Assembly (NCBI GenBank): GCA_031262405.1
Contig: JAISHS010000022.1
Location: forward strand, 1 to 64,000
Reading direction: 5' to 3'
Source: Oscillospiraceae bacterium
Lineage (GTDB): Bacteria; Bacillota; Clostridia; Oscillospirales; Oscillospiraceae
Length of the DNA stretch: 64,000 nt
How positions within the stretch are numbered: position 1 is the stretch's first letter; each line of letters begins with the position of its first letter. The notes under the pieces were generated by a model. The model was not told where the DNA came from, made no database searches, and was given only the letters and a program-made list of their open reading frames with translations. Below, one piece after another: positions 24,406-59,125 of this stretch. The position numbers were made by a program, and so were the translations under genes.

Positions 24406-26022
24406 CTATCTGTCCCACTTGGCTTCCAGCTGCTCTACCTGTTCGGCGAAACGCGCCAAATCCTTGTTCGGGCGGCCGGAGCTTGCACGCGCCGTGCGCA
24501 ATAGCGCTTCGCAGGCGGAAATGAGCCTACCCAGCGCGCGTTGAGAGCGCTCATCGCGCGAGGGACCGCGATTAGGCTCGGGCTTTATGATTTTAATGCC
24601 CGTCGTGCGCGTGATAACGCTGTCCGTCATGAGATCCCAGCTCGTCCCGCTGTAGGGCGCCTCAACCTCCAAAGAGCGCTCGTCGCGCAGCGTCTGAGCA
24701 AAGAGCTCGACAACGGCGTCCTCGCCGTGGTTGACAAAAACGCGCTTCGGAGCCCTTTTAAAGCCCGCCGCCCAGTCTAGCAGACCCTGCTTGTCGGCGT
24801 GCCCGCTGGAGCCGGGCATATTTGCGATTTCCGCCGCAACGCTAATCTGCTCGCCGAAGAGCTTTACGCTTTTCGCCCCGTCCAGCAGCGCGCGTCCGAG
24901 AGTTCCTTCGGACTGATAGCCCACGAAGAGAATAATAGACTCCGGCCGCCAGAGATTGTGCTTTAGGTGGTGGCGGATTCTCCCGGCCTCGCACATTCCG
25001 GAGGCGGAGAGTATGACCTTGGGCGTCGAATCTAGGTTAATCGCCTTCGATTCCTCAGCGGATACCGAGGTGTGCAGCCCCGGAAAGACCAAGGGGTTGG
25101 TGCCGTGCTCGAGCAGGGCGCGGGTGTCCGAGTCGAAGCAGTCGGGATTACTCTGGAGAAAAACCGCCGTAGCCTCGTTTGCCATGGGGCTGTCCACATA
25201 TACGGGAAAGCCGTCGTGACCGTGCACAAGACCGTCCTGCTTAATCTGCCGGATGAGATATAAAAGCTCCTGCGTGCGCCCGACGGCGAAGGAGGGGATA
25301 ACGACATTCCCGCCCCTATCCAGCGCGCGCTCAATGCAGTCGGCGAGAATCGGCGCGACGAAAGGGGCTTTCTCATGCAGCCTGTCGCCATAGGTGGACT
25401 CGATTACTAAGTAATCCGTCTCCTCCACAAGAACCGGCTCTTTTAGAATGGGCTTGTTCTTGTTGCCGACGTCGCCGCTGAAAACAATCTTGCGCTCGAC
25501 TCCGTCCTCCGACATGAAAATCTCGATGCAGGCGCTGCCGAGCAGATGCCCGATATCGGAGAAGCGGATGGTTACATTCTCGAGAATCTGTCGCTTTTCC
25601 CCGTAGCGGCAGGGCGCCATCGCCTCAAGGGCAAGCCGCGCGTCATTGGTGTCATAGAGCGGCTCATAGGGCTTTTCACCCGCGCGCTGAGCCTTCCTCG
25701 AGCGCCACTGCGCCTCCTGCTCCTGAATGTGCGCGGAGTCCATGAGCATAATCCTGCATAGATTAACCGTCTCCTCCGTGGCATAGACGGAGCCGGCAAA
25801 GCCGTTTTTAAAGAGCAGCGGAAGCTTTCCCGAGTGGTCTATGTGCGCGTGGGTGAGTAAAACAGCGTCGATAGCCGAGGGGTTAACGGGTATTTCTTTA
25901 TTTTCAAATGTATCAGAGCCCTGCTCCATGCCGCAGTCAACGAGCAGGCTCTTCCCGCCGACCTCGAGCAGCGTACAGCTGCCCGTAACCTCGTGCGTCG
26001 CCCCCAGAAATGTAACCTTCAT
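24406..26022 (-). CDS. MBL-fold / beta-CASP metallohydrolase with RNA-specificity domain
   Basis: LTHAHIDHSGKLP, STYGDR, ILSASGMCEAGRIRHHLKHNL, GYQSEGTLGR. Confidence 0.93.
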   Translation of the reverse strand: MKVTFLGATHEVTGSCTLLEVGGKSLLVDCGMEQGSDTFENKEIPVNPSAIDAVLLTHAHIDHSGKLPLLFKNGFAGSVYATEETVNLCRIMLMDSAHIQEQEAQWRSRKAQRAGEKPYEPLYDTNDARLALEAMAPCRYGEKRQILENVTIRFSDIGHLLGSACIEIFMSEDGVERKIVFSGDVGNKNKPILKEPVLVEETDYLVIESTYGDRLHEKAPFVAPILADCIERALDRGGNVVIPSFAVGRTQELLYLIRQIKQDGLVHGHDGFPVYVDSPMANEATAVFLQSNPDCFDSDTRALLEHGTNPLVFPGLHTSVSAEESKAINLDSTPKVILSASGMCEAGRIRHHLKHNLWRPESIILFVGYQSEGTLGRALLDGAKSVKLFGEQISVAAEIANMPGSSGHADKQGLLDWAAGFKRAPKRVFVNHGEDAVVELFAQTLRDERSLEVEAPYSGTSWDLMTDSVITRTTGIKIIKPEPNRGPSRDERSQRALGRLISACEALLRTARASSGRPNKDLARFAEQVEQLEAKWDR

Positions 26023-26040
26023 AGCATAATAACCTCGTAG

Positions 26041-26150
26041 AGTTTTGCCCCGCAGGGCAAAATAAATTTAAATCGTTTTTTTCAGCGGCGTGTACGGTGA
26101 AAAAAACTCTTCTCAGCTTGCGAGTGCCGCGCAGCGGCGCGTTGCAAGCT
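26041..26150 (-). repeat. Structured intergenic repeat, copy B (homologous to 58882-59045)
   Basis: Reverse complement has CAGCTTGC..GCCGC-TGC-GCGGC..GCAAGCTG..TTTTTTTCACCGTACACGCCGCTGAAAAAAACGATT..TTTTGCCC-TGCG-GGGCAAAA. Confidence 0.85.
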
Positions 26151-26164
26151 GCAACCAAACTGGC

Positions 26165-26189
26165 GGAAAAGGGCGAAGCCCTTTTTCGA
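26165..26189 (-). terminator. Probable terminator of the J-domain protein gene
   Basis: GAAAAGGGC-gaa-GCCCTTTTTC hairpin just after the stop codon at 26196. Confidence 0.55.
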
Positions 26190-26195
26190 CAAGCG

Positions 26196-40096: not shown

Positions 40097-40168
40097 AGCC
40101 GCCGCAGCGGTCTGCGATAACAAAGCGCGAGGAACGCGCGACTTATCAAAATTGCGTAGCAATTTTTT
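40097..40168 (+). repeat. Structured intergenic repeat, family 1, copy A
   Basis: 54-bp stretch identical to 56599-56652, then hairpin AAAATTGC-GTA-GCAATTTT. Confidence 0.95.
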
Positions 40169-56598: not shown

Positions 56599-56668
56599 AG
56601 CCGCCGCAGCGGTCTGCGATAACAAAGCGCGAGGAACGCGCGACTTATCAAATCGCGTAGCGATTTTT
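56599..56668 (+). repeat. Structured intergenic repeat, family 1, copy B
   Basis: 54 bp identical to 40097-40150, then hairpin AAATCGC-GTA-GCGATTT. Confidence 0.95.
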
Positions 56669-58056: not shown

Positions 58057-58617
58057 TTATTTTACGGGCGCTTTATCCATAAATCTGCTCAAGGGTTTTG
58101 TGAGTACAAGGCAGAGGGCAACGGTGAGCACGGTGTTCGGCAGCATGTAAGTCGAGTTATAGAGCAGGGAATAGAGCCAAGAGTTGTTGATGGTCGTGCC
58201 AAAAAGCTCTCCCGACAGGGTGATGTAAATCGTTATGCCGCTGATGAAGTGAACGACAAAGCGCGCGGCACAGCCGATAAGCGCGCCGAGCACCAGACCA
58301 TGACGGCGGCCGCGCATCACTCCGGCGAGACCCACGGCCATATATGCGAAGAAATAGTCCAGCAGCATAGACTCCCAGTTGATAGCCGCGCCGTTTGAAA
58401 AGAAGAATTTCAGAGCGCCGAAGAGCAGACCGACGCCCAGTCCCCAGACCGTGCCTCGGCGCACGGCGAAAACAACCAGCGGAATCATCACAAGGCTCAG
58501 CGAGCCGCCAAAGCCGCCGAAGCTGAGACCGATGGGAATCTCGAGGTAGCTGAGCACCATGGCAATGGCGATGAATATCGCGCCCTCCGCGATCGTCCTC
58601 AAATGTGTGTTTTTCAT
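58057..58617 (-). CDS. thiT: ThiT-like energy-coupled thiamine transporter S component
   Basis: Multi-TM MKNTHLRTIAEGAIFIAIAMVLSYLEIPIG; downstream of a TPP riboswitch. Confidence 0.92.
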   Translation of the reverse strand: MKNTHLRTIAEGAIFIAIAMVLSYLEIPIGLSFGGFGGSLSLVMIPLVVFAVRRGTVWGLGVGLLFGALKFFFSNGAAINWESMLLDYFFAYMAVGLAGVMRGRRHGLVLGALIGCAARFVVHFISGITIYITLSGELFGTTINNSWLYSLLYNSTYMLPNTVLTVALCLVLTKPLSRFMDKAPVK

Positions 58618-58677
58618 AATGACCTCCCAGAAAAAATAAATAATAGATAAAAGATAATAAATAATAGACCCAAAACA

Positions 58678-58711
58678 AAAAGTCCGCACTCCTATTTAGA
58701 GTGCGGACTTG
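58678..58711 (-). terminator. Riboswitch expression-platform terminator
   Basis: AAGTCCGCACTC-TAAATAG-GAGTGCGGACTTTTT on the minus strand. Confidence 0.88.
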
Positions 58712-58717
58712 TCCACG

Positions 58718-58830
58718 AATGTGACTTCCCTACGCCGGAATTACCCGGATCAGGTTCCGCACCGTATGGTGCAAGGGTACCGCGCCTCAATTGGCGTCGT
58801 CTCAGCCGGGAAGAACCCAGCGCCCCTTAT
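58718..58830 (-). promoter_or_regulatory. TPP riboswitch (THI element)
   Basis: Minus strand GGGGCGCTGGGTTCTTCCCGGCTGAGACG...GGAACCTGATCCGGGTAATTCCGGCGTAGGGAAGT. Confidence 0.95.
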
Positions 58831-58835
58831 AATGC

Positions 58836-58870
58836 AAACTCAAACCCGCCTACGGCTGGGCTTTGAGTTT
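58836..58870. other. Hairpin upstream of the riboswitch
   Basis: AAACTCAAA-CCCgcctacggctGGG-CTTTGAGTTT. Confidence 0.6.
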
Positions 58871-58881
58871 GATCCTTTTTC

Positions 58882-59045
58882 ACAGCCCGCCACGTGCCGC
58901 TACGCGGCGACTCGCGGGCTGAGCAGTGTTTTTTTCGCCGTACACGCCGCCGAAAAAAACGATTGGAATATTGCGCTGCGCGCAAAAACGATTGGAAATT
59001 GTGTCGCCGAAAAAAACGATTGGAATATTGCGCTGCGCGCAAAAA
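58882..59045 (+). repeat. Structured intergenic repeat, family 2, copy A, with an internal tandem duplication (40-bp units at 58949-58988 and 59006-59045)
   Basis: CAGCCCGC..GCCGC-TAC-GCGGC..GCGGGCTG..TTTTTTTCGCCGTACACGCCGCCGAAAAAAACGATTGGAATATTGCGC-TGC-GCGCAAAAA. Confidence 0.9.
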
Positions 59046-59125
59046 ATTTGAAAACTGCGCTACGTGCAAAATAGTGACTAATGGTGATAATACAATAGCT
59101 GGAAGGGCTTGTCAAGCATAACTTT

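Follow-up and report, generated by a model that had tools for sequence, protein, structure and literature searches.

Short repeats that are present in many copies, lie in intergenic regions and form hairpins are familiar from the BOX, REP and ERIC types, and the element described here shares these properties. Insertion sequences of the IS1182 family form a second point of comparison, and ISfinder lists these with target duplications of up to about 60 bp. Within this family, IS1272 of Staphylococcus has been reported to pick inverted-repeat targets of 21–85 bp by structure, and to replace the target without duplicating it (PMC5678879). We analysed two hairpin-rich repeats in the first 64,000 nucleotides of a contig (JAISHS010000022.1, hereafter the window) from the draft genome of an Oscillospiraceae bacterium (G000, 1.44 Mb, 78% complete). 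Judged from sequence comparisons, each is very probably an old copy of a miniature inverted-repeat transposable element (MITE) mobilised by an IS1182-family transposase.

The initial annotation of the window placed two diverged copies on opposite strands, at 26041–26150 and from 58882, and both are present there. The core pattern has exactly two matches in the window and none in 100 shuffles, and 26066–26125 is an inverted match of 60 nt (87%) to 58910–58969. The reported change of both arms of the outer stem, from CAGCTTGC/GCAAGCTG at 26041 to CAGCCCGC/GCGGGCTG at 58882, is confirmed, as is that of the inner hairpin, GCCGC-TGC-GCGGC in one and GCCGC-TAC-GCGGC in the other. The extent originally given to the 26041 copy covers three of its hairpins (hp1 to hp3) but misses a fourth (hp4, to about 26195) and the end motif at 26033–26042. 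The homology of the 'final hairpin' assigned to the 58882 copy (TTGCGC/GCGCAA) is not clear; in the 3' part of this copy a 29-bp tandem array stands in place of hp1 and the CTCTGCGAGG end. The sense direction is the minus strand at 26041 and the plus strand at 58882, and the features are as follows.

26031–26195, minus strand (the sense strand): copy 1, the whole element, with boundaries set by alignment of the G000 copies
26164–26190, minus strand: hp4, a variable, terminator-like hairpin at the 5' end, GTCGAAAAAGGGC..GCCCTTTTCC
26114–26151, minus strand: hp3, with outer stem CAGCTTGC/GCAAGCTG and inner stem GCCGC/GCGGC; two-sided changes in 4/8 outer pairs
26075–26107, minus strand: hp2, the core of the family, with stem GTTTTTTTCA/TGAAAAAAAC and conserved loop CCGTACACGCCGC
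26043–26062, minus strand: hp1, hairpin TTTTGCCC/GGGCAAAA
26033–26042, minus strand: end motif, CCTCGTAGAG / CTCTACGAGG
58837–58964, plus strand: copy 2 (hp4 58837–58871, hp3 58883–58921, hp2 58928–58960)
58955–59071, plus strand: 29-bp tandem array, about four units of AAAAACGATTGGAATATTGCGCTGCGCGC, starting inside the end of copy 2

Copy 1 fills the gap between two genes, one for a DnaJ-domain protein (stop codon 26196–26198) and one for a beta-CASP metallo-hydrolase (start codon at 26022), and the GAGG of its end motif, 10 nt upstream of the ATG of the downstream gene, could act as the Shine-Dalgarno sequence. GCTTGTC at 26188–26194 is an eroded left terminal repeat, for which the intact form in relatives is CAG.CTGTC[AG]AAAAA. 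In both copies of the window the terminal repeats persist only as eroded traces and no target duplication was seen, and the G000 copies in general look old, given their eroded ends and the absence of any remaining duplication. The structure, as tested on copy L004, folds far better than shuffled sequences whichever strand is taken (z -4.6 and -6.3).

Other features of the window and its genome are recorded here for completeness. A match resembling a TPP riboswitch lies beside copy 2 (58710–58837, minus strand; 39.7 bits, E 2.6e-6, below the Rfam gathering score of 54.3), upstream of ORF 58057–58689. A second hairpin-rich repeat, AGCCGCCGCAGCGGTCTGCGATAACAAAGCGCGAGGAACGCGCGACTTATCAAA, is present as an identical 54 bp at intergenic positions 40097–40150 and 56599–56652, and a third repeat family, around CCGCGTAGCGGCACGCTCCAACAGAGCGAAGCGTCATTGGG, is found in many places in G000 (L022, L023, L025–L030).

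In the sense direction the element is composed of hp4, hp3, a short purine link, hp2, hp1, and the end CTCTRCGAGG. The sequence of hp4 varies, hp3 has the form CAGCYYGC...GCRRGCTG with the inner GCCGC/GCGGC stem, the hp2 stem encloses either CCGTACACGCCGC or CCGCACAGGTCGC, and hp1 is exemplified by TTCGCCC/GGGCGAA. Intact copies in relatives have ends of the form CAG.CTGTC[AG]AAAAA...TTTTTTGACA..CTG, the left of which continues into the terminator-like hp4, and the 186–259 bp between the ends leave no room for a transposase gene. A conserved insert of about 45 nt, GAAGGTGAATTGCCCCGAAGGGGCAAGAGAAGCCGCCCTGGGGCG, is an optional part of the hp2 loop and is present in two different hosts (L096, L098, L099 and L103 in G010, and L165), and two loci in G036 (L293, L296) have two hp2-like core hairpins in tandem.

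When 14 copies from G000 are aligned, 97.1% of cells are paired and 11/36 pairs have two-sided changes; none of 500 shuffles was as high, and slid controls are about 43–52% paired. The covariation that had been proposed from two sequences is thus retained once many copies are compared, and in an alignment of 36 diverse copies spanning many genera, made without use of the structure, hp2 has two-sided changes in 9/12 pairs, with 64 two-sided cells and 2 one-sided ones (0/500 shuffles as high). Nearly all of the two-sided changes are from one Watson-Crick pair to another.

The expectation that further copies would be found in the host and its relatives is also borne out. There are about 17 copies in G000, 23 in G009, 15 in G010 and one in G008, and none were found in eight other genomes of the genus. 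A covariance model (R3) finds the element in 107/201 genomes, and 46/72 genera, of the same family (Oscillospiraceae), and the same ends and interior recur at unrelated loci across many genera. In a class-wide sample of 293 genomes, searched with stricter filters so that absence outside the family is not proof, model R3 matches only genomes of this family. The exact core pattern matches GTDB contigs in at least 116 stretches, and the titles among the 80 matches listed carry Oscillospiraceae or broader Clostridia names.

The copies in G009 have sharp ends, CAGACTGTC[AG]AAAAAGCCC...GACAAGCTG, beyond which the same terminator hairpin stands on the left and again on the right. Among the 33 copies with both ends and enough flanking sequence, 25 are flanked by a repeat of at least 15 bp and 21 by one of at least 20 bp, and none of about 3000 mismatched pairings reached 15 bp. 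The duplicated target is usually a whole terminator hairpin, typically with 24–40 bp duplicated, and at L092 two adjacent hairpins are duplicated (about 62 bp). The flanking genes are convergent in 20 cases and divergent in four, as expected of terminators. In all 14 clean cases, in which a duplication of at least 20 bp abuts both ends, the dyad of the hairpin, once restored, lies no more than half a base from the centre of the duplication. In several cases the palindrome extends past both limits of the duplication, and the best explanation is that a single longer palindrome occupied the site before insertion. One G009 locus, between Crp/FNR-like and thioredoxin-like genes (names inferred from sequence), has the arrangement terminator, element, identical terminator; in the congeners G001, G002 and G007 the same gene pair is separated by a single terminator and no element, and this one locus thus provides an empty site.

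Full-length insertion sequences with terminal ends matching those of the short element are present in two Oscillospiraceae genomes, each of which also carries many copies of the short element. The first (G100; CAGTTTGTCAAAAAAAC...GTTTTTTGACAAACTG, 1496 bp) is flanked by two copies of a 31-bp perfect hairpin, ACAGGTCCGGCATTTCAAATGCCGGACCTGT, and the second (G067; CAGACTGTCGAAAAAC...TTCTTCGACAGTCTG, 1540 bp) has a hairpin sequence repeated on both sides. Their transposases match NF033551, the IS1182 family, at 385 bits (cut-off 270, E about 1e-115), as well as PF13751, PF05598 and PF01609. Further IS1182 ends in the same bacterial family adjoin hairpins, and some lead straight into a hairpin of terminator type that, like hp4, lies just within the element (L230, for example). 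The repeat, which the initial annotation could not assign to a family, is placed with IS1182-family elements by its ends, by the duplication of its hairpin targets and by the full-length insertion sequences that share those ends, and an IS1182-type enzyme is probably the mover. The attributes of a MITE are all present, namely short length without a transposase gene, terminal inverted repeats, target duplication, occupied and empty sites, and ends common to an autonomous element, and the target is palindromic, as expected of an IS1182-family derivative, with duplications centred on the dyad in 14/14. The weakest part of this account is the enzyme, since a search for IS1182 transposase in G000, G008, G009 and G010 found none, despite the 23 similar copies in G009; all four assemblies are drafts, in which the gene may have gone unassembled, or it may have been lost. 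Co-occurrence gives no support either: 8/16 genomes with a strong IS1182 match carry the element, no excess over the family-wide half. The conserved interior, as would mark an autonomous copy, was not found in the IS1182 loci L224–L271.

A plausible model for insertion is that the IS1182 transposase takes the palindrome of an intrinsic terminator as its target, probably guided by structure rather than sequence, and that both strands would be cut symmetrically about the dyad, near the base of the hairpin. Filling in of the staggered cut would then duplicate the hairpin, such that the length of the duplication follows that of the hairpin and a terminator is kept on each side. The observation that dyad-centred duplications track hairpin length suggests structure-guided symmetric cleavage, and makes a question on IS1182-type transposition testable. 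Because insertion duplicates the terminator, both neighbouring genes remain terminated. The interior stems may be kept perfectly complementary at the DNA level either because selection acts on a cruciform or on a single-strand hairpin, or because replication corrects the palindromes.

The strong covariation and the conserved loops, together with the optional hp2-loop subdomain that some copies have, are also what would be seen were the repeat a cis-regulatory or non-coding motif whose RNA structure is under selection; a 5' leader would be one example, given how often start codons follow it in G000. At about 9 of the 19 listed G000 ends of the CTCTRCGAGG type the GAGG is 6–11 nt upstream of the ATG of a good ORF, in five of them at exactly 6 nt; three other such ends abut the stop codon of an opposite gene. 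However, the genes downstream of the G000 copies are unrelated (TGT, FtsW/RodA-type, FliO-like, ThiF, beta-CASP hydrolase and alpha/beta hydrolase), and the end of the element has apparently been taken over as a ribosome-binding site rather than marking a regulon. In relatives, moreover, the element sits at terminators and not in leaders. The pairs themselves also speak against an RNA: in hp2 of 150 copies (1200 cells, requiring at least 6/8 pairs formed, a criterion that does not favour G-U over A-C) there are only four G-U (0.3%), compared with 10 A-C (0.8%), the mismatch to be expected from the other strand, and 16 other mismatches (1.3%), whereas in a small control, six tRNAs encoded at the same loci, the acceptor and T stems have G-U at 7/72. 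An RNA selected on one strand should tolerate G-U above A-C, and the near absence of G-U in hp2 favours a palindrome kept at the DNA level. No Rfam family matches the element, either at gathering score in the window and seven further loci or at a relaxed E-value in one G010 copy and the 58882 region. A structure carried on a mobile element, in any case, needs no host regulatory role, and we consider the RNA motif improbable. The earlier choice between a mobile structured DNA repeat and an RNA motif is thereby narrowed, with the copies, ends and target duplications upholding the first and the second weakened.

Two further accounts are much harder to reconcile with the data. The element is intergenic, multi-copy and hairpin-rich, as would be a REP- or BIME-like sequence moved through single-strand hairpins by a RAYT (Y1) transposase, an association raised in the initial annotation. 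To our knowledge, Y1 enzymes do not make terminal inverted repeats or target duplications of 24–40 bp, both of which are present here, and we regard this origin as highly unlikely. A search for the Y1 transposase (PF01797) found none in the four element-bearing genomes of the genus (G000, G008, G009 and G010); within the genus it occurs only in element-free genomes. The identical flanking hairpins could alternatively reflect terminator arrays that arose by local duplication or recombination around terminators, with no mobility at all, and palindrome-correcting replication could keep the stems. This would leave unexplained the recurrence of the same ends and interior at unrelated loci in many genera, the single-terminator empty sites of congeners, and the full-length IS1182 elements that share these ends and duplications, and there is very little chance that it is correct.

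We therefore return to a MITE moved by an IS1182-type enzyme. The class of element is known, and what is new, as far as could be found, is its spread across a family, its conserved and covarying multi-hairpin interior, and its dyad-centred duplications; no prior description was found in open papers. The element is very abundant in a major gut family, apparently with no earlier description, and its covarying interior cautions against taking covariation in an intergenic repeat as proof of RNA. A further, rather doubtful idea is that the interior (hp3-hp2-hp1, with conserved loops and the optional loop domain) is itself a functional structured DNA hairpin or RNA that was spread through the family on terminator-targeting IS1182 ends, and in some hosts was taken over as a ribosome-binding leader.

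The closest relatives are the IS1182 elements of Oscillospiraceae (G100, G067; NF033551), which have the same terminal repeats (CAG.CTGTC[AG]AAAAA / TTTTTTGACA..CTG), are likewise inserted beside a terminator hairpin that is duplicated, and may have a left end that runs into a terminator-like hairpin (L230); they differ in being 1.5 kb long, with a transposase gene and without the hp3-hp2-hp1 interior. Compared with BOX, REP and ERIC repeats, the element has its own ends, a hairpin target duplication, a core sequence of Oscillospiraceae, and no RAYT link. IS1272 similarly targets inverted-repeat (stem-loop) structures and not a sequence, but its target repeat is reported to be replaced and not duplicated (PMC5678879), whereas the target of the present element is duplicated; this IS1182 precedent is therefore not identical.
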